From assembly GCF_016097555.1 (NCBI RefSeq), contig NC_054704.1, positions 76,961,638-77,025,637 of the forward strand: 64,000 bases of DNA, read 5' to 3'. The position numbers were made by a program, and so were the translations under genes. Shown here one piece after another: positions 18,821 through 45,800 of the stretch (its first letter is position 1; every line of letters begins with the position of its first letter). The notes below the pieces were generated by a model that saw nothing but the letters and a program-made list of their open reading frames with translations, searched no databases and was not told where the DNA came from. The stretch is from Gigantopelta aegis (Eukaryota > Mollusca > Gastropoda > Neomphalida > Peltospiridae).

Positions 18821-18886
18821 ATGAGTTCTGAAATCGAACCACATATAACAAAAAAGTATGAAATCAAGAAGAGACTTGGAAAGGGG
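18821..18886 (+). CDS. MAPK15: MAPK15 exon 1
   Basis: [20 protein letters not shown] ending KG, then donor GTAAGAT. Phase 0. Start chosen because it matches the short ERK7 leader before the glycine loop. Confidence 0.92.
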
Positions 18887-24800: not shown

Positions 24801-27800
24801 CTATGCGATCTCAGCGAAGTCGATATTGGTGACATATTGTTATCATCTAGTATGTGGAATCTGTGTCATTGCAATGGTTTTTCCTAGATTTCTGTCAGGA
24901 AAAAATGTGAGTAAAATCTAACGAAAAATAAAGGTAGGAGAGCAATTTTTGGTAGTTGTTAACATTTTGGTTCGGACAGTAGGGTCTGAGACTTTAAATA
25001 CACACATTTTCAACAAGCATTCAGTGGATTTAGTTTGATCCTTTTCAGGTTTACTCGTAACATTAAACAAACATCTTGGTGACTAATACAAAAGCTACAA
25101 GAAGAAACTCAACACCAAGCTGGGAAACAATGTTTTTGGTGGTGCCTGTTAAATGACCTAGCTCTTTCAATACATTTGAGTCAGTCACCAAATGTTGAAA
25201 TAATGTTACTGTAATTTTTTATAATCATACTACTATACATGTAGTTACATGGTACAGTGAAACTTTCTAAGTTCGACACTTGTGCCTAAAACAAAACTTA
25301 TGCCTAAAACAAAAAGTCTGGTTTTAATGGGTATCTAGTTTAAAGGTGTTTGGATTGAGGTAAAAGCCTTTATTGTATGGTGTTTTATACGCTCTTGAAG
25401 TTAAATAAAACTAAAAAATCTTTTAGTTATCATCAAATGATAATTCAACAGGTTAACGTTTTGTCAGATTTTGTGACAAGTTTAAATTTCATTTGGAAAT
25501 AAAACAGTTGATTTAAACAATTATTCAGCAGTCAAATAGAGTGGATTGAAATGAATAAAATAAAATAGTTACTTAGCCATTCAAAAATGTTTAACAGTAC
25601 ACCCCCCCCCCCCCCCACCCCCCCAAATTAAAAAAAAATAAAAATAAATAAAAGAGAAAAAGATTGATGCATATATTATTTAAATGATTTTATTTTCAGG
25701 CTTATGGTATTGTTTGGAAAGCAATTGACCGCCGTTCAGGTGAAGTTGTAGCAGTGAAAAAGATCTTTGATGCTTTCAGAAATCAAACAGATGCTCAAGT
25801 ATGTTTAAATTTTAGCAAATATGACATACAATTGTAACAAATTTATTACATGTATGCTGATCTAGATTTCATTGTGACATATTGATACTCATTAACTACA
25901 TGTCAGTGTTATTGATTTGAGTTTCTGATCATATTTCTTAATATTTCAAGTTTCATATCATTTTCCATGTTAATATTACTTTGAAGTGATATTGCTGCTT
26001 CGTGCACTCTTGATTGGTATATCAAATGTCTTGGTATGTGCTGTTCTTTCTGTTGGATGGTGTATATAAAAGATCTCTTGCTACTAATGGAAAAATTTAG
26101 TGGGTTTCTTCTCTAAGACATCACGTCAAAATTACCAAATGTTTGACATCCAATAGCCAATGAGTAAGAAATCAGTGTGCTCAAGTGGTGTTGTTAAACA
26201 AAATAAACTTAGTCTTATTCAACTTACTGTGCTAGCACAACAAATATGCTATTCAACCTGAGTCATACCTACATACTGCAGAATTCTCTCCCTTGCCGGA
26301 TATGCGCAATGCTATCCTTGCACGGGCTACCTGTAACTTCATTCTCAATTCTGCAGTCCACCTGTTAACACCTGTTAAGCTTTGGCAAAAAGTTTTCTTT
26401 ACTTGTAATTTTGTGTTTGTTTTTTTGGTTGAACTTGACATACGGTTGGTAGTTGGGAATTCTGTGTTGAATTTACCATGTCCGACGCGAGTTCGTTGAC
26501 AGCTAGCGCACGGAAAGTTTGTGCGCGAGATGGTTGTCCATTTCCTTTACGACGTAAAGACACACACGTGTTGTGTCCGGACTGTCGGTCTTGTTCTCAA
26601 GACCGTCAGTGTGAGATCTGCGCCACGTGGTCTCCTGACCAGTGGGTTCGGTTCGGTTCGCAGACTCAGGTTTCGGGTACCAGCAAAATCTTGTCGTCTG
26701 CTTCGGCAGTAGTCGGCAAGTCGGACTTAGTGGGTAGGTCCCATAAGTCTGTAGACACTTCGAAAAGTGTCCGGAAAGGGGGGAAACACAAGGGTGTTTC
26801 TTCTTCGGTCCGTGTTACGAGTACAGTTACAGATACTTCGGGAGCGCCCCCCCGGGCTCCTATTGTGACCGTGGTACGTGAGCCGTCTTCGTTAGTGACG
26901 GCGCCTTCTTCTGTTTGTGTGGCTTCGTCGCGGGCGTCGCCATCGTCGTTACGGTTACCTTTACAAACAGAAGGGGGGCAGGGTGGAGTCGTCGCGGCAC
27001 CGGTTTTGACGACTTCATCGGTTACCGAGCACATGCACTCCGTTGTGCATAGGTCCACTGCTTCGTCCGCAGAGCAGGTGGCCCCGACTTTGCCTTCGAT
27101 TGCTGACAGTCGCTTCGGCACCTCAGCATTCTCAAGGCCCGAGGAGAGTTCTGCCAGTTTGCTTCGAACTGAGCCAGTTGTTCCGATGCCGGGATCCGTC
27201 TCTGATGGCATCCCGACCGATGTTTACCGTTGGGTGGAGGACTCATCCCGTTTGGGTCCTCCGTTTGCATATGTTTACCCCAAGGGTCCGGTGACTTCGG
27301 TAGCAACGGACATCTCCTCACAGTTTGCACCGTCTTTGGTCCCTACCTCTTCGACTTTACTCGATAGAGGACGAGGTTCGCGCAGATACCCCTCGGCTGG
27401 GGGTACTCTGTGGCCGCAAACTCCGACCGTTCCGCACTTGGCGCAGGAACGACCGTTAGGCTTTCAGGAAACGTTGTTTCGGAGTTTTGTGGAATTTTTG
27501 AACGCTTCGCCTCAGTTGGGATCATTGCTTTCGCAGACGGGACCGTCGGGTGCGGCTCCCATTCCTCCCCCCCCCCCCCCCCCCTGGTTTTCCGCCAAAA
27601 CCAGCAGAAACTGCGTCTCGACAGCAGTTTGACGATGCAGTTAGGGATTGTCGTTCGGTTCCTATTGTTTCCGTCTCGGGAGACGCTGCCCCAGGGGCGT
27701 CTCGATTAGGGGGAGGAGTCCATATCGATCTTCGGGATCCAGTGGACAGTGACCTGGCTTCAGAGGAAGCGTCGGTTGGACCGGATTCTGTCGCTGACCC

Positions 27801-30800
27801 AGCTCTCTCTCACTTCGGTTCGGAGGTAGAGGAGGAGTGCGATTATCCGGCGGTTCTGGCTTTTGTCAGGGACCAGGTCCGACAGGTATGCGGGGACGCT
27901 ATACCTCAGGTTGAGGCCCAGCCTACATTCAAGGGTGTCTCCTTCGGGAACCGTTCTTTGAATTTGGTCACTCCTCGTGAGGAGTCGGGTTTACCACTTG
28001 CACAGGAGGCGCACAGTTCACTTTGTGACATTGATGTGTTGATCACTGGCAGTGATCGTATCCTGGGAGTGGGTGTTGATGAGTACCCAACGGCACTGCC
28101 TACGGGGAAAATCCTAACGGGAGCGCGCATTTTTCGTGCCGACTCCTATGAGACGTTGGGGGCGGATTTTCTCGAACATCCGGCGGTCGTTCCCGCTAGT
28201 GTCCGAGCCGCTTGTTTCCCCATCGCCGCATGTGTCATTGCCAATCGCGGATCTGGAATCGTTCGAACGGCTGGCTAAGTCGATGTTCCAGGTTAATAAC
28301 CATTTAGGTACGTTCCTATTTGGCTTGGATAAGGCTGTCGAGAGCCTTCCCGCGATGGCGAAAGGCTGTTTGGAGGCTGCGTCAAAAGCCTCTAAGCATA
28401 TCGCTCAGTTATCTGGCCGATTGTTTGCGAACAGTCTTTTGTTACGGCGTGACCATTACCTGGCGGGTTTGAGTGCGTCAAACGTTGCGAAGACGTTTTT
28501 TCGTACACGTTCGGTACGGGAAAATTTACTTTTCGGTCCCGATTTTAATATTGTCCTAGACAAGGATTTGTCGCGACCAGTCCCGAACACTCGACCCTCA
28601 ACCTCTGGTAAACGTCGGTCCACGTTTTCGGGGTTCAAGCCTCCTCCTGTAAAAAAGGCTGCTTTTTTACAGTCGGCTCAGATCCCTAGGGTTCCTGACA
28701 CTAGGAGGCAACCAGGTAACAACCCGTCTTCCGCTAAGCGAGGACGCAAACGTCGTACTGCGTTCCGTTCTCAGTCCACCAAAGGCGTTGCGCCTACGGG
28801 TGGTAAGCGGTTGGGGTGAGGGTACGTGAACGATCGGCAGTTGCTTTCGGAGGTACCGTTAGCAACCATACCCGTGGGGGGCAGGCTCCGCCATTTCCTT
28901 CGAAATTGGTGCAAGCTGCCTGGTCTCGACCCCTGGGTTCTGTCGGTCGTTCGACACGGTTACAAAATACCCTTTTCTTCGAGCCCCCCTCTTACTTCCA
29001 CTCCGAGAATGCCGCCGTTACCGTCCGCGGATCGGCGCGTTTTAGTGGAGAGTATGATTGCCGAGTTTCTCGACAAAGGGGCCATCCAGAGAGTCAGTCT
29101 GGACACTCCGGGATTTTATTCTCATCTTTTCTTCGCCCGGAAGAAAAATGGGGAATGGAGACCAATCCTAAATTTGAAGCCACTGAACGTCTACGTCGAT
29201 GTTCCTTCCATGAAAATGGAAACGGTTCATTCGGTCCGGAACCTGCTTCAAATTGGGGAGTGGGCTGTGTCGATCGATCTGAAAGACGCATACCTCCATG
29301 TCCCGGTGCACAAGGCGTTTTGGAAGTTTCTGCGCTTCCTGTTCGACGGGAAAGCGTACGAGTTTCGTGTGCTCCCGTTCGGTTTGGCGACGAGTCCCCA
29401 TGCTTTTACACGTGTGGTAAAAGCGGTGGTAGGTCATGTTCATTTGTTAGGGGTTCGAATGCATACCTATCTGGACGATTGGTTGATCCCAGCTTCGTCG
29501 CAACAGGAGTGTCAGACCAATGTCGGGTTGGTTTTGGACACGATCCTCCAATTGGGTTTTATTCCCAATTGGGTGAAATCGGAGTTAACGCCGGCTCAGA
29601 TTTTCACATATCTCGGAGTGGTCTTCGATCTTGTGGTAGCGTCGGTTCGTCCCACCGATGCGCGTATCCACAATTTCCAAACGTCGGCGCGACGTTTGAT
29701 GGGGGAGCAAAGTACTACGGTACGATCTCTCCACGTGGTGTTGGGCCACCTCGAATCTCTGGCCTCATTGATCGTGCGGTTCAGACGATTCAAACGACCA
29801 CTCCAGTGGCATTTGTCCCCACGGTGGGACGGTCACAATTGGGACACGATAGTGCCTCTGGGCCCATGGTTCACTCATCCGATACAGGAGTGCCTGTCGG
29901 ACAAGTGCATGTCCCTATCGGTTCCGTTGCACCCCCCTGCTCCGGATCTGATCCTGTTCACGGATGCGTCGCTGCACGGGTACGGGGCGCATCTGTTGGA
30001 TCAACACATTTCAGGGGTATGGAATCTCTCCGAGAGGAAGCTTCATATCAACTGTTTGGAGATGGAGGCAGTGCATCGTGCCTGTCTTCATTTCCGGTGT
30101 GTTCTTCGACACCGTCGAATTCTGTTGAGATGCGACAATACGTCGGTAGTGGCATATCTCAATCGTTGGGGTGGAACCAAATCGGAGACTTTGGGTCGCA
30201 AAGCTCTTGCGATTTTGGAATTCTGCGACCAACTAGGGACCACTCTGTGGGCGAAACACATTCCTTCATCGGTGAATGTGTTAGCAGATGCCCTCAGTCG
30301 ACATACCCCTGTTCAGACGGAGTGGATGTTGAACAAAGGGGTGGTCGCAGCGGTTCTTCGGGTGTGGGGCAGTCCACAGGTGGACATGTTTGCCACACGG
30401 TTGAACAACCAATTGCCGGTGTTCGTGTCCCCGGTACCGGACACATTGGCGTTGGAGTACGACGCGTTAAGTATGGATTGGACGGGACTGGATTTTTATG
30501 CCTTCCCTCCTCCTGTCTTACTCGGCAAGGTGTTGACCAAAGTGGTCCAGGAACCTTGTCACGTGACGTTGATAGCTCCTCTGTGGGTGGCGCAGCCCTG
30601 GTTTCCACAGCTCCTGTCACTGTTAGTGGCAGTCCCGTTCCGATTACCAGTGTTGTCCGATCTACTCAGCCAGCGACTGAGTCAGACGGTGTGGCATCCG
30701 AAGCCGGAGGTCTTCCGGTTTCACGCGTGGAGGTTATCAGGGCTTCCTTGCGACGCAGAGGTTTTTCGACAAGAATTGCGCATCTCGTCTCTTCAGCAAA

Positions 30801-33800
30801 GCGCAAATCTACCGAGTCGGTTTATCAGTGTCACTGGCGTATGTGGGTTCGTTGGGCGAACGCACGGGATTTCGATCCCTTATCGCCTACTGTCAACGAT
30901 TTAGCGGAGTACTTTCTGGCGTTGGTCCAAGAAAGGAAACTTAAAGTCACGACAGTGAAAAGTCACAGAGCTGCGATTTTCACTACTCTTAAACAGTGTG
31001 GATGTCGTGACTTTTCTACCAACTTGGTGTTGCATGATTTACTTAAATCATTACAATCCACGGTTGAACGACCTTCCATTATTCCGAAATGGAATGTCTT
31101 TCTGGTGTTGCATGCTCTTAAGGGTGCGCCTTATGAGCCGTTGAGGTTTGCTAGTCTTCGTGCCTTGACGTGGAAGACTCTGTTTCTGGTTTCACTGGCA
31201 GCTTGTCGTCGGATCAGTGAGATACATGCTTTTTTGCATGACTTGGTTGATTACAATTCGGACGGGTCTGTCACTTTACGTACCGACCCTATCTTTGTTG
31301 CTAAAAACCAGTCTCCAGGGGAAGAGTTTCCACCTACTGTCATTCACAGTTTATCTCGTACACTGTCATCTGATAACTCGGATAGACTTCTTTGCCCGGT
31401 GAGAGCATTGAAGTATTATTTGCAGCGTACGAAAAACCGGCGGCAGGGTAAAAAGAGATTGTTTATTTCTTATACCATTAGGCCGGGTGATGTCACAAAA
31501 AATGCTTTGTCTCGATGGATAGCAGCTACCATCAAGCTAGCATATGAGATGGCGGGTGATCATGTGTTACGGAATTTCTCTGTTAAACCACATGAGATCC
31601 GAGCCATTTCTGCTTCCCTGAATTTTCATGACTCTTTAGATATTATAAAGGTCATGAATGCAGGGGTTTGGAAAGGACGGCACACTTTTGACCGTTTCTA
31701 TTTCCGGGATATGGCGGTTGGTCCTGACGGTACGCGTAGGATCCAGACAGTCATTGCGGCTCAACACGTCGTGTCTGTGCGCAGGGCAACGGAAAGGGGT
31801 CGACCTCTTTTCCGTCCGACTGCCATCGATTCACGCTTCGGACATGTTTAACACTCCACTCTTTTCTGAGGGATGGGGTTTTTTTTTTTTGTAGTGTTGT
31901 CTACCGTTTCCTCTCCCTGGGGAGATGTTTTTCCTCCCTTTCATGGGGATGAGTTTTTCTTTTGGGAAGCCCCTTTTTATTCCCAAAAGTTTTTTGACTC
32001 CTTGTTACCGTATGTCGTGGTTCGTCCTATCTCCATGTCATTACTTCAAAGGAGCTTTTTGGGTACGGGTAAGTCCTCTATTTTCTTACCTCCTCCCATT
32101 AATGTTGAATTCACGTGCTCTAACGGTGTCATTGCACGTCCGTTATAGCATATTTGTTGTGCTAGCACAGTAAGTTGAATAAGACTATTAGAAAATTTGT
32201 TTCTAATTTTCATTATTATTCATACTTACCTAGTGCTAGCACAACAAACTATACCTCCCACCCACCCCTATGAGGCTTTCCCTCTGCAGTGGTGGGTGGA
32301 CTTTGAACCGAGAATGAAGTTACAGGTAGCCCGTGCAAGGATAGCATTGCGCATATCCGGCAAGGGAGAGAATTCTGCAGTGTGTAGGAAATGACTCTGG
32401 GTTGAATAGCATATTTGTTGTGCTAGCACTAGTTGATTTCTTGAACTGTAGTGTCACATTTTTTTCAGGCACAGCAATGGTAAAACCAAAGTAAAGTTGG
32501 TGTTAAATTTAGTTTTCTTTTATATAAGTAATAATTAGTTTCTTTGCTAGATTTTGGTGTTTTTAAATTTGCTGTACATATTAAAAGTAAGGGGAATTTG
32601 TTATGAAACAAGCCTTTGTATTTATGAGTTTTTTGTACTTTATTTGCTATACATGATTATCTCTTTTGTTGGTTTTAGTTGGGGGGGGGGGGGGGGGGGT
32701 TCCCCCATTTTAATATGTCTTAAACGTTTTCCTATTCAGCCAAAGTGTCTGGATGATAATCTTCCAAAATGTCTACAGGTTAAAGATACAACAAACATCA
32801 TGGTCAGGTGCATACATAATCCCCTGCTTGTTTCCTTCACCTAAGAAACGTTTAGCTATTAATAAAGATCAGTCTACTCGGAAACTAGCAGAAAACTGTA
32901 ACATAGAGCAATTACATAGCACTAAAACGTTTAATACATTATTTGTTTTACCTGGCTCACACTGGAATGAATTTTGATTTAGCCAATTTTTTTAGATATA
33001 GAATGAATCCTTGAAACTTATTAAAACATGGTTAGTTTACGGAATATTTTATCAGTCAAAGATTAAATGTAGCCTGATAATGAAAATTAATTTGGCAATG
33101 GCCATGGTGAGCTCTGGTTTTAGACAAGTTTTGGGAGGTGACCATCAGCATCTAAGAATTGTAGTTAAAATCAACCTTTAATATAGGTAGTACTAGACCA
33201 AATAACTTCCGGCTGGGTCAAAGTTCGAGGTGCACCGAACTTTTGATAGAGAAGTGAACACCACAAATCCTGTGATTGGTTATAAATGTGAGTGTGTTGG
33301 TTGTAAAAAATAATAGTTTTATCTGGGTTAAAAAAAAAAGCAATTTTATTTCATCTAGTACCAATGTGTCAAGTAGCCTTGTGCTTGAAACATGTATGGG
33401 GTACCTGTAAAAAAAAGTACTCGAATTTTGTGCGGAACTAGGGTAGTCATAGACGCTACCCGTTATCTCAGAAACGAGCAGCTTGACCCCCATTTTTTTC
33501 TAATTCACTTTAAGTGTGAGGGGTGGTAGTATTTATATCCGTGGCGTTTATGTCGGTTGATACGTTGCAGGTAGGAGTTTTAGCCGCATATGTTACTATT
33601 GTCGTCTATGGGATTTGATTTGGTAGTATACACCCTATAGCACATATTCAGTGCATAATAAAAAATATTATGATTTTGTCATTTTATCATTTTATTTAAT
33701 TAAACTATACTGGTTGATTAATTAGCCATCACTCACCATGCAAGTTCACAATGACCTTGACCTTGACAGTAATCTCTGTACATGGCTCTGAATGGAGTTT

Positions 33801-36800
33801 GAATCAAAGTTAGCACTTAAGAAAAGTTGGTTTTGGCCTATAATTCATACTGTAAAGATTTCAATAATTTCTTTTTACATGGTATTTGATTTGCCATATA
33901 CAACTGCTCTTAAATATGGTATTATATATAGGCAACCTGAACTAAGATTTTAATAGCAATTTATTTTTATATTAAAAATAGCATGTGCCAATAGTGGGTT
34001 AATGTCTTTAGTTTCCATTAACATTGTTAATTTTTTATGTATGAAATTCTGAAAACTCAAATTTGTAAAGAACTTGATTTTTATTGTCATTTTGACATAT
34101 TTATAGGATGCTAAGTTATATTTTAGACAAAATAGTAGTTTTATGAAAAAATTTAAGTAAATTTGAAGAAAAACTTTATCAAAAACATAATTAAATTTGT
34201 TGTCACTATTGTGCCTTCTATTCTTATTTGTACATAACAATAAGGTTGTTAAACATATACTTAGATCTCCAGATCATTTTTTTCTTCTTAATAATCACTT
34301 AGTTAGCTCTCATGAAAAGCATTTTGAGTTTATACTAGATTCAGAACCAATTTTTTTCAGATTTGTTTATCTGCCTTGGATTAAGTTGATAATATATTTT
34401 ATTGTTAAAGCTGTATTACCTAATGTTACTAGCTAAATAAAATGCTGGATTACAGATTGTAGGAATACATCTAATATACATATTGTATTCATCCGGATTA
34501 GAAAATAATGCAAGAATATAGATGTTCGGGTAATTTTGTCATTTAAAAATAGTTTTTTTCAGTAATTAATCAAAAATAAATGTGTGAAAGCTGCATGATA
34601 ATTCCAGATATCACAACTATTAAAACCTCCAACTACAGTAGGCTATAAATAAAATATAGTCAGGAATATTGGTGGCTGCCAATGGTTTTCATGGTTCATT
34701 ATGAAAATCAGCATGGCCGATGGATTTGAAATTCCCACACCTGGTAACTTGAAGACACCCACACCCAGCATACAGGATTTCCTCCCAACACTAATGTTCA
34801 GGACATTAAGTCATTACTTCATACAGGTACAGTCATGTTTGTGTTTCCTTCCTCACACAGTGTATTTTTTTAATACTGATATTTCTTTGATGTGCCTGTT
34901 ACGGTCTTCATAATCTAGGGGTCAATCATGTGCATGTGTTTTAATGGAATTCTTTAAAGGGGTAGAGGTACTCTGACTATCTTTGTTGTCTCTACATATA
35001 TACCGGAGTACAAACACCCAACTGACAGTAAATATCTTCAGGAGTTTTATTTTAAAACATTTTGTTGTTTAATATGACATATTGCATTTGTACAAAACTA
35101 TATGCAATATATATGTTTTTTGAGGTGTACATTATATTAGGTTGCACTGTAGAAACAACAGTTTCAGTGAGGTTGTCAGTTTATGTCAGAATACACCAGA
35201 TCCTGGTTGTCATAAAGACACATAGCTGGACACTTTTTGAAAAATGTATGTTATCAGTATAGGTAGTACTAGACCAAATAACTTCCGGCTGGGTCAAAGT
35301 TCAAGGTGCACAGAACTTTTGATAGAGAAGTGAACACCACAAATCCTGTGATTGGTTATAAATGTGAGTGTGTTGGTTGTAAAAAATAATAGTTTTATCT
35401 GGGTTAAAAAAAATGCAATTTTATTTCATCTAGTACCAATGTGTCAAGTAGCCTTGTGCTTGAAACATGTATGGGGTACCTGTAAAAAAAAGTACTTGAA
35501 TTTTGTGCGGAACTAGGGTAGTCATAGACGCTACCCGTTATCTCAGAAACGAGCAGCTTGACCCCCATTTTTTTCTAATTCACTTTAAGTGTGAGGGTGG
35601 TAGTATTTATATCCGTGGCGTTTATGTCGGTTGATACGTTGCAGGTAGGAGTTTTAGCCACATATGTTACTATTGTCATCTATGGGATTTGATTTGGTAG
35701 TATACAGCCTGTAACCTGTAGAAGTATGGGCATTGTCTACAGTCAGGGTACTAATGGAAATGATGGTAACAGTTTGCTTGCTTTTTCATCATTGTACAGA
35801 GAATGTATTTGGGTGTTTCCATTTTTCACTCGCTTTCTCACTGATACCTTCTAGACTGTTCCATTGTAATAAAGGGGTGCACCCAAGTTGTTGTTATTGC
35901 AAATTGTAGAATGTTTGGAAGATAAATCGTCTGAATGGATGTTTGTTGTTAACAATGATGTTATATTTTTCAGAAACTGACCTGCATAATGTAATCAAGC
36001 GAGGGAACATTCTGAAGGATGTACACAAGAGATACATAATGTACCAACTGTTTAAAGCGACAAAATACCTTCATTCTGGGAATGTCATTCACAGAGATCA
36101 AAAGGTTAGACACTGAATTCTGCTTAAATTCTTAATCCCAAATTACCAGTGATTATTTGTTTTTAGCTTGCATTTAATGCATGACATGTTATAAACATGT
36201 AAATGATGTCCTAAATTTTATAATGTGCCTAAAAAAAGTTGGTTATGCAAAACAAGATCTACTTGGGGAATATAATCACACATAGTTAAGTAATTTGATA
36301 GGATTTACTTTTACATTATTAATTATAAAATATACTTAACACATATAATGTCTCAGATATGTGGATTATAGTGTTGTTAACTGGCATAAATATATCTGTC
36401 CTGTACATTGCGACCAATTTTTTTTGCATTTGTGATAAAGTTTTTCATTTTATCTATATAAAAAAATAGCAGTAGGTGAAAAAGTTAAATATTTATTTAT
36501 TATCCACATAGTTCAAGATATTCAGGGAAATATACTCAGTATGACCCACGTGTGTCATAATGATTTCAAGTGCACAACAAATGACGTCATTTTGTGAAGC
36601 AATGTCATAATTTAATGCAGCTTCCCCGGTTTAAAGGCTTATCAAAATGACGTAATTTCTGAAAATTACGTTGATCATTTCGTTGTCTTTTTTTAGTAAC
36701 CTTTGAAATGTTTTGACATGGTCCTAGTTTGTTATTCGTGAAAATAATATTTTGGATAATGTGGATAATAAAGAAATTATTACACTTGCGCGTGAATCGT

Positions 36801-39800
36801 ACTGATTTTACAAAACTCGTGTCAGGATTTATATATTACCCTCGCTCTTGCTCGGGTAATACAATAATCCTGACACTCATTTCGTAAAATCAGGACGACA
36901 CACAAGCTCGTATAATAATGTCTTTATATTTTAGGTAAGTGAATGGAATACATACATACTATATTTTTATCTGCACAGCCCTCTAACATCCTGTTGGACA
37001 GTGAATGCGTGGTGAAGCTGTGTGATTTCGGCCTCGCTCGATCCCTCACACAAATTGGCATGGACGAGACGGGTGACCCGAATCTGACAGAATATGTTGC
37101 TACCCGGTGGTACAGAGCCCCAGAGATTCTCCTGGCTTCACACAAGTAATAATACTTTCACTAACAAGGATATTGGTTTGATTGATTGATTGATTCATTT
37201 ATGAATTTGACTAAAGTTGATTACTTGACGCAAGTAAAAATACTTAAATTAGAAAGGATATTGTTTGATTGATTGGACAACATTGTGTGTGGGGTCTAGG
37301 TTAGTTGGTAGAGATCTTGCCTGTGTGCTTGGTTTTAAGATTGACTTCCATTGGTGGATCTGTTTTTGTTTTTTTACCCCATCCTAACCAGTGCCCCACA
37401 ACTGGTATATCAAAGCTATATTTATTAAATTTGTGAACCAACGTTTCTCCACACATTTTAGCTATTTTGATTGCATATCTTGTGTTCTATGTTAACTATA
37501 GATACTTGTGTTGAAGCCTGTTCTTGTCATGTATGTTAATTATGTATTTGAATTGTCCTCTTGTTACACAGTGTAATGTGTCCGAGTGTTGTTTAATAAA
37601 TCTTGAAAAATCTTCAACCTTGAAAGGCTGTGGGGTGTGGGGTGTGATGTGTTATCGTTGGGAAAATGCATGCATATAAGATTCTTTGATAAATTGAAAA
37701 AAGGATTCCTCTGAAGCCTGTGTGTTAGAATTATCAAATGTTTGACATCCAGTAGCTGATGATTAATTAATTGGTGTGTCCTAGTAGGGTTGTTAAACAA
37801 TCCAAACGGCCAAACATTGATTATCGAAGGCTTTATGACATATAGCAAAATGATTGACCAAATCAATGTAAAATTGAATTTAAGAAAGAAAACACTGGGT
37901 ACAATCACTATTTAGGAGATTATTTTTTTAGATCAACTGTTCTTCATTAGAACGTTTTAATTAGACCAAGAAGGCAAAACTGCTGTTACTTTTGTCAGGT
38001 AATAATGCATGTAAAATATTTTCATTTTCAACTTTTCTTTACAAAAAGTTTGTGAAATAGCTGCTGCTTTTCAAATATATCATCACATGCATATTCAGAA
38101 CTGTATTTTTGAATTGACTGGTTGTTTTGAGTTTTACACCAGAATACACAAAATCACAATGTATACATACATGTATATCAGTAGTGGTTGATAATATTTT
38201 TATTTACCTCTGAGTCAGTATTTTGTACCACTTGGAGTCATTGTATGTCATTATGTTTTTATTTTTCCTTGTGAAACATTTCTCTGATTTAGATATTTTT
38301 TGTGTTTTTCAGGTACACTAAGGGTGTGGACATGTGGAGTTTAGGCTGTATTCTGGGTGAGATGTTGCTAGGGAAGCCAGTGTTTCCCGGCACGTCGACA
38401 CTGAATCAGATCGAGAGAATCATGTCCTCTATAGCTACACCATCACGAGCAGGTTGGTACATTGAATTGTCCTGTGGCAGACTATAAAATTGACCTACTA
38501 TGTGGCTCAACAAGATGTCCGAACCAACTACAATAAATTACTCTCCTACCTTTAATTACTGTTAGATTTCCCAAAAATTGTGTCCAGATACAAATTGTAC
38601 AAAAAATCCATTATAGTGACACATTACATATACAAGACTGTAACGATGTCACCGGTATAGACTTTGCTGAAATCACATAGGGCAAAATACATGTCTGCCA
38701 TGTTGCTTGTTTATGGAATACTCTTACAAGAGGGGTAGATCGATATGACATAATCTAACAACATCATGACGCTTGAAGGTAAAACGCACTCATCATGACG
38801 TCGGATTAATTACGTCACATACTTAGAAGGCTTCCACCCCTCTTGAAGAGTATTCCATAAAAAAGCAAAATGGCAGACGATGAACAATTGCATGTGTTTT
38901 GTCCTGGGAGATCTTAACAAATTCGATATAGGTGATATGTTTTCAGTCTAATCTGTGGAATCCATGTCAATGTAATGGGTTTTTCATGATTTATGTTTGG
39001 ACAAAATCTAACGTTAATTAAAGGGATATTCCTGAGTTTGCTGCATTGCAAGATGTTTCCGACTAATAAAATACTTCTACGATTAAACTTGCATATTAAA
39101 TATATTTTCTTGTTTAGAATATCAGTGTCTGTATAGTCAATGTATTTCTGGTCATCTTAATATTTGTAAAAAGCCCAAACTGGATTTTGTCTTCAAATAA
39201 TTTTGTATGTACGAAAAAACTATATTTTAGGAAATAAGATGAAATTTAACCTAGTACAAATATTAGAATAATAAGAAACACGTTTAATATACAGTCACTA
39301 ATATTTTATGCAGAAAAATATATTTGATATATAATTACAATCGTTAAAAAGTCTCTGTTAGTCGATAACATCTTAAAAAAGTGCAGCAAACTCAGGAATG
39401 TCCCTTTAAAGGTAGGAGAGTAATTTATCTCATACCCCACTTCCGGTCTTGTTGTCATGGTTTCTTTTGTTAAAAGTGTAGGTGTATTCACCGATAACCT
39501 ACACTTTTCCTCCAAAAGTGTAGGTGTATTACAATACACCTACACTGGAGGAAAAGTGTAGGTGTATCATGATATATCGAGATATACAGGGAAATATAAC
39601 CAGTATGTGTTATAAAAATTCACGTGCATAACAAATGACGTAATTTTGGGAAGCGATGTCATAACTTAATGCGGCTTCCCCAGTCTTAACTCTGTGTAAT
39701 CGCTAACGAAATTCACGTCATTTCGTCATCTCTCTTGAAACATTTTAACATGGTCCTTGTTATTCATAAAAGTAATATTATGGATAATGTGGATAATAAC

Positions 39801-42800
39801 AAAATTCTTAGACTCGCATGAGGATCATACTGATTTTATGAAACTCGTGTCAGGATTCATGTATTAACCTCGCTCTTGCTCAAGCAGTACAATAATCTTG
39901 ACATTCGTTTCGTGAAATCAGTGCGACACACACTGATATTTTGGTATAGATTTGAATTATGAATATATACTGTAAATCAGAAAATATCAGTGGGCATAAA
40001 ATGTTGGCGAGCATAAGATGTTAGCAAATTTAGCAAGGCCATACGAAACGCTAATATTTCATGAGAAAACAAAATGATGCAATTGCTTTGTCAGTGATGA
40101 ACTGAACACACAACAGCGGTTTTAAGTATTGTTAAATGTTATTTGTTTAAAACAAAGTATGTTAATTATTGTACGCATTTGTGTGTTTTTTCTTTGCAGA
40201 CATTGATAGTATAGGTTCAGCGTATGGAACTTCTGTTTTAGAGAAAGCTTGCATGAAGTAAGAGTTTTTGTCTTTGACTTTAAATGTGTACATCGTGGAA
40301 ATAGGTGTTAGTAATTTGTTACATGCTTGGGAGAGGTATACAGTGTGTACCCATTTGTCTACCATCAAGTTCAGTTGGTAGAGTGCTCGCTTGGGGTGCT
40401 TGGGTCGTATGTTCAATCTGCCTCAGTGAACCCATTCTCAGTTTGGGTATTTTTCCCATTCCAACCAGTGGCCCATGACTTGTGTATCAAAGGTGTTATC
40501 CTTTTTTTGTGGTGAAGTGCATATAAAACATCCTTTGCTATTAGCTGATGATCAATATGTCCTAGTGGTATTGTTAAACAAAATAAATTTTAACCACTCA
40601 CCTGGTCACCAAAGCTACTTTTGTATATAAATTTCACTTTTCTTAGTGTGGGGTTGGGTTTTTTTTTTTTTGGGGGGGGGGGGGGGGGTTGTTTTTTTTG
40701 GTGGGGGTAGGAGTTAGAACATGTAAGCATAAAAAATTAATTGAGTTATGAATCTATATGTCTCCATATGGGTATCTCATAGCATTTGTGCAGACTGCAC
40801 TGAAATCTGCAATAAATTTGTTATTATTTGTAAATAAAATGAAGTCTTTTTATGCATTCCCGCCATATTTGCATACTGCACACATAAAGAGTGGCCTTAA
40901 GAGTACTATGTTAAAAAAAATCATAATACTGAAGGTCAAACTTTGATGTCATATTTGTATTATAATAGTAACAGTATATTGTATTTGCATTCTTTTTTAC
41001 TGACTTGTAAAATAGAACCAATATTTACTGGCTAAATCATGCAACCAATTTATTTATCAGTTTGCTGTCTACAGTTGAAAATTTCCATGTTTATTGGATA
41101 ATCATACTTCATACGATGATGTTTCTTATTATCAGAGGCAGGAAAAAGTTTGAAGACCTCATTCCTGATGCACCAGCCGATGGTCTCGACTTGATGAAAC
41201 GATTACTTCACTTCAACCCGGATAAACGTGTTACTGCTGAAGAAGCTCTCAAACACCCCTACGTCGAGAGGTGACATACATTTGTATTTTATAGTAAACA
41301 TCAGGACTCACCCTGTACATTGACAGATTATCCAGTTGCTAATTTTTATACAAAGTAACTATCACATTTATTCTTTGGTTAATAAAACATTCCTTAAATT
41401 AACCACATTTTAATCATTTTCAAGAAAATTTTCTAAATATCTCAAAATTGGCTAAACCAAAATTAGTTCCAGTGTGAACTCTTGACAATTGAAAGATAAT
41501 GGACAGCAGTTGATCTTTATTCAAGAAGTTAAACATAGGATAGTTTGTTGAGATGGTAACAAAGAAAGAAATGGTTATATGGCCACAGACATATGGTTAA
41601 GGGAGATGGTAACAGTTCACTGTATAATACTATTGGAAAATTAATTGAATAATAAATGTTTATAGCTGTGACTTGCAGAAGGATGGTGCTCAGCTGTTGA
41701 GCCTTTATGTGAAGTGCAATGGGTAGCAAGATTAAATCCCAGTTCTTATCGTTTGAAAATTAATGGTTAGCAAAATCCTTTCCTAACAGATTGTTAATTC
41801 TGTTAACAGAATGAGTGTATTTTGTGGTATTCAGATTTCATAACCCATCAGAAGAGCACACACTGGACTACGACGTCGTTCCTCCCATCAGTGACGAGAC
41901 ACAGCTCACGGTAGATGAATACAGGAGCAAGCTATATGAGGTATTAATCAGTTCTCATGTCAGAAATAATCAGTGCAAACAAACAAGTACCAAACTATTT
42001 TATCACATGAAAGATTGTGTTATTTGTCTTGTTAATGTTTGTCAAGACTTAAAGTTATAATTTTTCCAATGACAACATCAAATTTTATGTTCAGGTCCAT
42101 TACTCACAATTAAAAGTCCTAGACCAATGAAACTAGACTCCGACTCTTGCAGAATATATATACATTGAAACTCCTTTAAACTGGACACCCTCCAGACCAA
42201 GTAAAACGTCCGGTTATAAGAGGTATCCGATTTAGAGAGGTTCTCTTCTGTAGAGATATTTAAAAGGGGGCCGCAACAAATGTCTGATTTTGAGGGAAGT
42301 CTGGTTTTGAGAGGTTTCACTGAGAATATATATAAATTGAATGCATGTGACGTTATTAGAGATATAGCATGGGCCCTGATCTGCATGTCGTGTGTGTTCC
42401 AGATGATAATGCAGAAGAAAGCCGAGCGGCGGCGGAGACGAAGGGAAGAGGCTCAGAAGGCTCAGAAAGCTGTCCAGCTAGCTCAGATAGCTCAGCGGAC
42501 CCAGGATGAAATACCACCGGCAGAACCGGAGGTGGGCATGGAGGAGAACTCACCCAAGGGAGTGTCACCCAAGTCCATGGCGAAACACGTATCTGCCGAG
42601 AACTACAGACACCAGTCCTCATTCACAGGTATGTAAAGTGGGCCAGTTTGTACAGACAGTTACTGTATGTAAGAATACAAAGTTAAAAGGCCCACAAAGT
42701 GTATATTGGTTTGTATTAGCAGGATTAAGACCTACAGCACCAGTTAACATACAGTTATCCTCATGACCAACAGGATTATCCACAAAAAAGGAAGGCCCAG

Positions 42801-45800
42801 TTAAATGTCAACATCACTAATATCAAACACTTGTTTTGAAAACCATTACTTTCAGTCATTAAATGCAGGTGTGTGTGCAGAAAATTGTTTCAGGGGGGAT
42901 CCTAGTTTGTAGCAAGCAAAGTTTATGGGGGGGGGGGGGTCAGGTCATACTCCCCCAGAAAATATATTTTTTTAAAAGAAAATTCACTTGGAGCAGGGGG
43001 TGGGTTTTGACCCGAATACTTCCAACGTGCATGTAATGGATCTTATAAACTGTGTTGTTTGCATCATAAATAGTTTTATATTATATCTGCAACGTTTTTT
43101 TATAAACGGTAATATTATCACATTGAAAAAATATGATAACATCTTTTTGCACACTCCTGTTTTCAAAATTATTTAGTTTTCTTTTCATCAGGAATATACT
43201 ATAATAGCAATGTTGACTGATTATTCTAAAGCCTAGATCATATTATATGACACAACTCAACTGGATGATTGCATTGTCTGCAATCAAACATATTTTGTTG
43301 TGTAAAATGCTGTTGGGATGACTAAACCATTTGTCGAAGACTACTGATTTTTCAATATATACTACATGATGCAACTCAACTCGACCGTCACGTCATATAA
43401 TGTGATCTAGGCTTAATATACACGTGTGTGTTAAATATAACTAACATGGTATCTGATATTTGATTTACAATATGCATTTGTTACAGGTGTAGCATTTGGT
43501 AGAACGACACACGATGGTCATCACAAGGGCTCCAAGACCGTATTAACACGGCAGAGAAGTTACGAACATTTACAAGGTCCTTCCAACAATATGGGGGTAG
43601 GTTATTTTCCTTGCAACTGAACTGGCTTTGCTGAAATAGGAATGGCATAATTATTGGTATCAGAGGTGAGAAGTGCGGAAGTCAGAAGTTGCTGATTTTG
43701 CGATTTGTTCTGTATTTTAACATCTCTTATTCAGAAGAATAGCTGGACTAAGGAGGTAGTTTGGGGTACATCTACTTGAAGATAAAAAAAAATAAAGGGG
43801 TCTATGTTTTACAGCGTGATTGTGTGTTTTAATTTTCCATTTAAAGTGGTTACGATGTGAATTATGCTAAATTGGTCTATAATTTCTCTGGTGTTAATTG
43901 TTTAGGTTACTCATAATTTAGTCCTAAAGTTAAGAAAACTGGTAAGATGGCAATAAAGTTGGCCCTATACTTCTGTTTTTGTAATATGCAGATGCATAAA
44001 AATTGTAATCTCTTGTTCTTTGATTTGCTATAACTTCCACCTGAATCTTGAAATTGTTACTTAAAAGATGGATCGACTTGCCCTTTCAAGGTATGCTATG
44101 GCAGGCTGACCAACTTTCCAGAATTTTCATTACGTACTCGGAATTCCTGAATTAATGCCAAATATCCGGAATTTTTTTCAAATTCACTCGAATTGTTTTT
44201 TTAAGCAACTAATTCTTATTACATTCTACATTCTTAGAATTAAATATCTGTATCACTCATTTCAACCTGAGCTCCATTTTGTCTAGTTTTGTGCCATTAC
44301 CAAGGCCATGGGCGTGTGTCTATTGTCAACAGTCGACCAATGAAAATGTCGAGTAAACTGAAACCATATATGAAAATGTTCTTTCTTATTATTATTTTAT
44401 ACTCAAATAGTTTTTGTATTCATTTTAAAGATATTTTAAATATCATAGACTTATGTTCCTACTGGGCAGGCATCGGTTCTATGGCGATGTATGCAATTTT
44501 GCCACCGTGGATGAAAGCATGAATATATAACAGAAGAACGCTACGATCGTACAAAAAAAACCCCACAAAAAAACCCACAAAAAACAAAAAAAACCGAACA
44601 GACAATTGTCTTCTTTCCATTGGCTGTCACATGCAACATTTGACTAAATAATATTTGGCCACCACTAATCTGTTATATGACGCACCCATGACATTAAAAT
44701 ACCTACCGATATTATTTTATTCAAGTAAGTTAAATAATAACGCGATTTTTTTTCTGTACACTGGCTCTCCACTGTAATAGTAATGTAAGTGTAATGCAAA
44801 ATGGCAACCAGTTTTAATGTGGGTAGCAGACGTTTCGTCCCAAAAAGCCAGTTCGCCACAAATCCGTTCAACCCCACTACATGCATATGATGAAATGGTG
44901 CATATGTGGCAATGTACCTACATAAAAATAACATTGGCCCCAAGTTTATTTGTCACTTTATTGCTAATCTGTAGATGGGAGTCTTAAACTGTAATAGAAT
45001 ATTTGCTAATGAAGTGGGGTTTTTTTTGTGTGAACTTGTTGATGGTTTTTGGTGTGTGTGTGTGTGTGTGTTGGGGGGGGGGGGGGGGGGGGGGGGTCTT
45101 TTTATGAGGAGGTTCCAATTCACATATACTCATTGGTATTGTCATTTTGCAAATATATGTCAAACATGACATTTTTCACATTTTTGAAAAGGGTGTTAGC
45201 GCACATAAAAATGAAAATACCAGGAAATTCCGAAAAAAAAATTTCCATTAGGTTGGTCACCCTGCTATGCTAGAACAGTTTTAATGTCAGACATTGTAGG
45301 TTCGTTATTGCTTGGCATTGTTTCTCTATACTGAAATATACTGTAACTTTGTTGGATTACACCATAACTGATCCTTATGTTTAGGTATTTGTTAAGTAAT
45401 TCAAGGAGTATTTTGATCATAAAGCAAAACCAAAGTCAAGGGTATCAGGGTGTTGGTTTTTAAAATATTGAATTATTAGGCGTATACAAAATTGCCACGT
45501 TCACCAGGAAAGACCCTCCACATTGTGCTGATTTAACTGTTATTTATGTATGAAATACAAACCCATATAATCCATCAGTTAAAGTGTAAAAATAATTACT
45601 TTTAACTTATTTCAACACAATGGACTGTGGAGTTAGTAATCTATCCACACATGTGTGTGATCAAGAGGTGATAAGTAGGCTCAAACTAATTGTAGCCAAT
45701 GATCGATGTTGAAATTTCAACCAGTGTTCACCACTACTTAACTGTCACTCCAGAAAGAAGAAAAGAAACAAATGTTATTTAATGACGCACTCATCACATT

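Follow-up and report, generated by a model that had tools for sequence, protein, structure and literature searches.

How can a strongly conserved kinase gene that is otherwise unbroken lack one exon from the middle of its catalytic domain? The question is raised by a MAPK15 (ERK7/8) gene in a 64-kb window of the Gigantopelta aegis genome, the window being the whole stretch of DNA analyzed here (C6:76961638-77025637 of a 1.149-Gb assembly in 5,216 contigs). We searched it by tblastn with the human MAPK15 kinase domain and C-terminal tail, and the matches, together with splice sites and reading phases, allow the gene to be read as 12 exons on the + strand (18821-48704). The exon expected in third place is missing from the locus and was not found in the assembly. 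In other animals MAPK15 is linked to cilia and to genome stability.

With the human kinase domain as query, five exons matched strongly and exon 1 weakly, and the human tail matched a further two exons; exons 7, 10, 11, and 12 were added from splice sites and reading phase. Every one of the 11 introns, the gap included, runs from GT to AG, and the exon phases are all consistent with the sole exception of the step across the gap. The model encodes 55 residues upstream of the gap and 475 downstream, plus one split codon. The vertebrate gene has about 14 exons (PMC3202601); if the missing part is a single exon, this gene should have 13, and the exons are numbered on that basis.

18821-18886, + strand: exon 1, start codon and start of the glycine loop, ending in phase 0 (weak tblastn match, E 0.28; splice site, phase)
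25700-25798, + strand: exon 2, AYGIVWK...TDAQ with the VAVKK lysine, ending in phase 0 at GTATGT (85% identity to human MAPK15)
25799-35973, + strand: gap of 10,175 nt, from which the expected exon 3 (121 nt; helix C, following strands, and hinge) is absent
35974-36104, + strand: exon 4, ending ...HRDQK, starting in phase 1 and preceded by TTTTTCAG (tblastn, splice sites, phase)
36979-37145, + strand: exon 5, with the TEY motif (tblastn, splice sites, phase)
38313-38452, + strand: exon 6 (tblastn, splice sites, phase)
40200-40257, + strand: exon 7, 58 nt (by eye, splice sites, phase)
41136-41270, + strand: exon 8 (tblastn, splice sites, phase)
41835-41940, + strand: exon 9 (tblastn with the human tail, E 5e-7; splice sites, phase)
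42403-42628, + strand: exon 10, charged tail (assigned from splice sites and phase)
43487-43596, + strand: exon 11 (splice sites and phase only)
47812-47979, + strand: exon 12 (splice sites and phase only)
48516-48704, + strand: exon 13, conserved end GSYTQSYGT...L and stop (tblastn with the human tail, E 3e-4; splice sites, phase)

Exon 2 closes at phase 0, and exon 4 opens at phase 1 and so needs one base from upstream. An alignment of human MAPK15 with the PDB chains 3oz6 and 6v6a places exactly 40 residues between DAQ and the (E/D)TDL codon in both chains, and 40 codons plus one base therefore make 121 nt missing, which bears out both the phase mismatch and the exon length that a preliminary description of this DNA had proposed. 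That description also placed exon 4 at the border of the gap, as we find it, but the exon starts at 35974, one base past the 35973 given there. The missing block, RTFREI...YLVFE(F/Y)M, belongs between 25798 and 35974. The Pfam Pkinase profile (263 positions) is matched over positions 1-37 at 26.2 bits, which is under the cut-off, and over positions 84-263 at 158.5 bits; scans of the gap and window found no DNA for the part between 37 and 84, which carries the helix C glutamate and the hinge. Were the exon bypassed, the frame would shift as anticipated, with exon 2 joined to exon 4 reading ...TDAQKLTCIM and then a stop.

The gap was scanned in six frames by ungapped scoring against three versions of the MAPK15 block. 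The best scores for the whole block were 19, 18, and 14, compared with 133-171 among the three relatives themselves, and the best block score elsewhere in the window was 25. With human queries, the neighboring exons scored 154 (exon 2) and 153 (exon 4). A composite block reached 15 in the gap, where shuffled maxima ranged from 8 to 26, and three sub-blocks of 12-14 residues reached 21, 29, and 26, where 10 shuffles of each peaked at 25, 31, and 26. An exon 3 lying on the other strand, in pieces, or displaced within the window was rejected on the same grounds, the six-frame scans not rising over the shuffled maxima. The earlier statements that the gene lacks the exon between exons 2 and 4, and that the block could not be read in any frame on either strand of 25799-35973, thus hold, with block scores there of at most 19. 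Similarity scoring of this kind did miss the short, divergent exon 7, whose human counterpart scored best elsewhere (22); exon 3 surpasses exon 7 in length and, by a wide margin, in conservation.

The assignment to MAPK15 draws on the kinase part and the tail of the protein. Its best PDB chain matches are 6v6a (E 5.7e-112, 377 bits) and 3oz6 (E 8e-102, 343.6 bits), with the next-best chain at 235.2 bits and ERK1/2 and others far behind. We take 6v6a and 3oz6 to be ERK7-type kinases of protists, the PDB listing saying MAP kinase only, and on that understanding the gene would be closest to ERK7-type kinases and not to ERK1/2, FUS3, or others. The TEY activation motif, followed by VATRWYR, is read in exon 5, and a long C-terminal tail has a conserved end that aligns to the human tail (E 3e-4). 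In its kinase match and the conserved end of its tail the gene is like MAPK15/ERK7/ERK8 (human, 6v6a, and 3oz6), and it is unlike them in that this locus has no DNA encoding RTFREI to YLVFE(F/Y)M.

Is the exon to be found elsewhere in the assembly? Whole-assembly searches, a heuristic first look, were made with a 41-residue consensus query and with the human block. Exon 3 of this gene was not among the 8 matches to the former or the 2 to the latter, whereas human exon 4 as a positive control returned the window exon as the best of 15 matches (E 2.2e-12). The assembly-wide tblastn-type search that the preliminary description had called for has in this way been run, with two queries, but the usable copy of the exon that it was expected to find elsewhere did not appear. 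Exon 4 with its flank has a single match in the assembly, and therefore no second allele is seen there.

The only strong match, at the top of the consensus list (C761:4587, E 2e-4) and absent from the human-block list, lies on an unplaced contig of 148 kb. It belongs to a MAPK15-like gene of its own, which has short introns and changes frame repeatedly (about 4400-5900 of C761:1-10000, L017), and it was rejected as the missing exon because this contig has its own, different MAPK15-like exons on either side. Either the contig is a contaminant whose reads were left uncorrected, or the gene is a decayed paralogue. The other seven consensus matches were judged by eye to be one ERK-like exon, two other kinases, and four sequences that are not kinase-like. 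One human-block match, C2:47238806, is by eye an exon of another kinase, and the second was already among the consensus-query eight. In the former region (L084, C2:47238500-47239300) the last part of that other gene's kinase exon, beginning near IFETSREVILVLEL, is present as four tandem copies together with intron-like sequence.

The gap itself is a continuous intron without N. Its 10,175 nt comprise 6,223 nt of a DIRS-type retrotransposon, 2,524 nt of a second element, and 1,428 nt of remaining sequence, with the following features.

26210-32432, + strand: DIRS-type retrotransposon, with reverse transcriptase, RNase H, inverted terminal repeats, and an internal complementary region
32681-32699, + strand: run of 19 G in single-copy intron
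33186-35709, + strand: 2.5-kb multicopy element with direct terminal repeats of about 450 bp (33186-33635 and 35262-35709), flanked by TATA and TGTA

A mobile share of 86% agrees with the earlier view of a gap filled with mobile DNA. A causal tie between this mobile DNA and the loss of the exon is not supported: the borders of the 2.5-kb element are regular and those of the DIRS element seemingly so, and therefore neither looks like the scar of a lost exon. The inverted ends of the DIRS element are alike at 118 of 123 aligned positions, with 2 gaps. As delimited here, the window copy has TAG at either end and shows no target duplication, and its recombinase part gives only a weak SAM-like match under the cut-off (E 0.0026). 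The halves of its internal complementary region (about 32145-32260) lie 42 bases apart, with CTA flanking on both sides. Excerpts of PMC3266345 describe DIRS1-like elements as inserting without target duplication and as having internal complementary halves that overlap on 3 bases. The window element is like these in its reverse transcriptase, RNase H, inverted termini, internal complementary region, and shared end trinucleotide, and is unlike them in that its complementary halves are parted by 42 bases, with no 3-base overlap. Judged by the window copy, it is probably an ordinary intron insertion with regular borders.

Between the two elements, intron 32425-33185 is matched over its full length only by itself among the best 40 of 868 candidates, the other 39 matches being to a repeat fragment within it. 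The run of 19 G in this stretch is a candidate site of a deletion or mis-join. Runs of C or G of 15-19 bases occur in or near the gene at 25602-25616, 27567-27584, 32681-32699, and 40672-40688, and a further repeat lies in the gap at 25850-26225.

If the exon has been lost from the DNA, the state of the rest of the gene bears on when. All 1,590 coding bases are unbroken, as are the splice sites at the 11 introns, and no further disabling mutation, the mark of a unitary pseudogene, was found in the 1,590 nt. A neutral-decay estimate puts the chance of a disabling change at 95% by 0.011-0.019 substitutions per site, according to the indel rate assumed. With the coding bases intact, any genuine loss would thus be recent, perhaps carried by a single haplotype. 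Given that the rest of the gene is without decay and that the exon was found in neither gap, window, nor assembly, we favor, with moderate confidence, a recent and perhaps polymorphic exon 3 deletion allele in an otherwise intact MAPK15 gene. That the exon was lost from the DNA rather than during assembly is inferred, and so is the polymorphism. The preliminary description had listed deletion, collapse in assembly, and presence on the other haplotype, each of which remains a candidate. A DNA loss within the 1.4 kb of non-mobile intron would have taken out the 121-nt exon and both its splice sites, and transcripts would join exon 2 out of frame to exon 4, with a stop six codons on. The product, a fragment of 61 residues, would lack helix C, the hinge, and the catalytic loop, and the allele would be expected to be null; a second haplotype would retain exon 3, and the loss may still segregate. 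Nothing here points to a new mechanism.

Several observations weigh against such a deletion allele. A loss-of-function allele is expected to be rare in a gene this conserved, no deletion scar was found at the locus, and the exon may instead have been lost during assembly, the main rival. The C761 gene was reported neither by the human block nor by the exon 4 control, so a diverged, frame-broken, or split exon may escape these searches. Some kinase matches in the assembly, on small and large contigs, contain stops, which together with the frame changes in C761 may reflect noisy reads in part of the assembly. We place second, as possible though less probable, an explanation in which exon 3 is present on both chromosomes and a short stretch was dropped in assembly, for example at the 19-G run, at a haplotype switch, or during gap filling. 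The otherwise unbroken and strongly conserved gene would fit this, as would C/G runs of 15-19 bases in and near the gap and an assembly of 5,216 contigs of which at least one bears a frame-broken gene. However, the two heuristic searches found no contig with this gene's exon, the intron is free of N and its single-copy parts are seen once, and no frame error occurs in the 1,590 coding bases. Third, and unlikely, is a fixed recent pseudogenization, in which the species has lost MAPK15 function and decay has just begun. In its favor, neither the exon nor a second intact MAPK15 turned up in the assembly searches, but no other disabling change is present in the 1,590 nt, and early fixation is a more special case than an allele still segregating.

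We consider each of the remaining explanations very improbable. The least so is that the gap holds an exon 3 altered beyond recognition or replaced by a new one, giving a complete but altered protein. The splice sites on either side are intact, exon 7 was found via phase and splice sites after escaping similarity scoring, and the sub-block scores in the gap come near the top of the shuffles (one of 29 against a maximum of 31); against this, the block is so strongly conserved that, of its 40 residues, the human version shares 24 with one PDB chain and 25 with the other, scoring 133 and 142, whereas the gap gives at most 19. Still less credible is a shorter product made from exon 4 on, a kinase-dead C-lobe with tail, for which an in-frame ATG-ATG just upstream of exon 4 opens a frame into that exon; both ATGs are intronic, however, upstream of the acceptor, and chance suffices to account for them. 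We give equally little weight to a working MAPK15 being made without an exon 3 in the assembled germline locus, whether through a new exon in the gap or an exon supplied from an unassembled place, with the N-lobe rebuilt in an unfamiliar way.

A segregating exon 3 deletion would have analogues in bivalves. Hemizygous or haplotype-specific segments are described in excerpts on Mytilus galloprovincialis (PMC7653742) and the pearl oyster (PMC9646362), the latter also naming mobile elements as a source of variation. The haplotype-specific segment proposed here would resemble such presence-absence and structural variation, unlike which it concerns MAPK15, the excerpted cases being whole genes, general structural variants, and large regions. 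A literature search combining MAPK15, mollusc, and exon found no such paper. A real deletion would make this locus a clean natural knock-out of a conserved kinase and a case of presence-absence variation at the level of an exon; an assembly loss would instead be a warning that, in this assembly, no gene should be called lost from its model until reads support it.

The two 450-bp direct repeats noted earlier in the gap are present, but they are not separate repeats, being the terminal repeats of the single 2.5-kb element. Because both belong to a single element whose borders are regular, one at each end, deletion of the exon by recombination between them was rejected. In the window copy they differ at 7 of 448 aligned positions, with 2 gaps in addition, and the longest open frame in the element is 107 aa. 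Among the best 40 of 3,048 candidates, at least 40 copies in the genome, including that in the window, share 97-100% identity. Thirty loci were sampled via the 3' part, the window included: 19 are right ends with no full unit after them, 10 are in tandem, and one has no match to the end motif. All 18 non-window right ends read CCC (one of them, in L065, is doubtful as similarity seems to continue), the window end reads GCC, and L075 holds another, diverged copy with CCG at its end. Both copies with both ends present (two of two) have 4-bp target duplications, and that of the window copy, TATA/TGTA, matches at 3 of 4 bases, which is good if imperfect evidence. Its direct terminal repeats and fixed-length target duplication point to a long terminal repeat-type element at 33186-35709, and it looks like an ordinary insertion into the intron. 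The element has GG...CCC ends and also forms tandem arrays of 2.07-kb units, for example five consecutive ones at C3:53.108-53.117 Mb.

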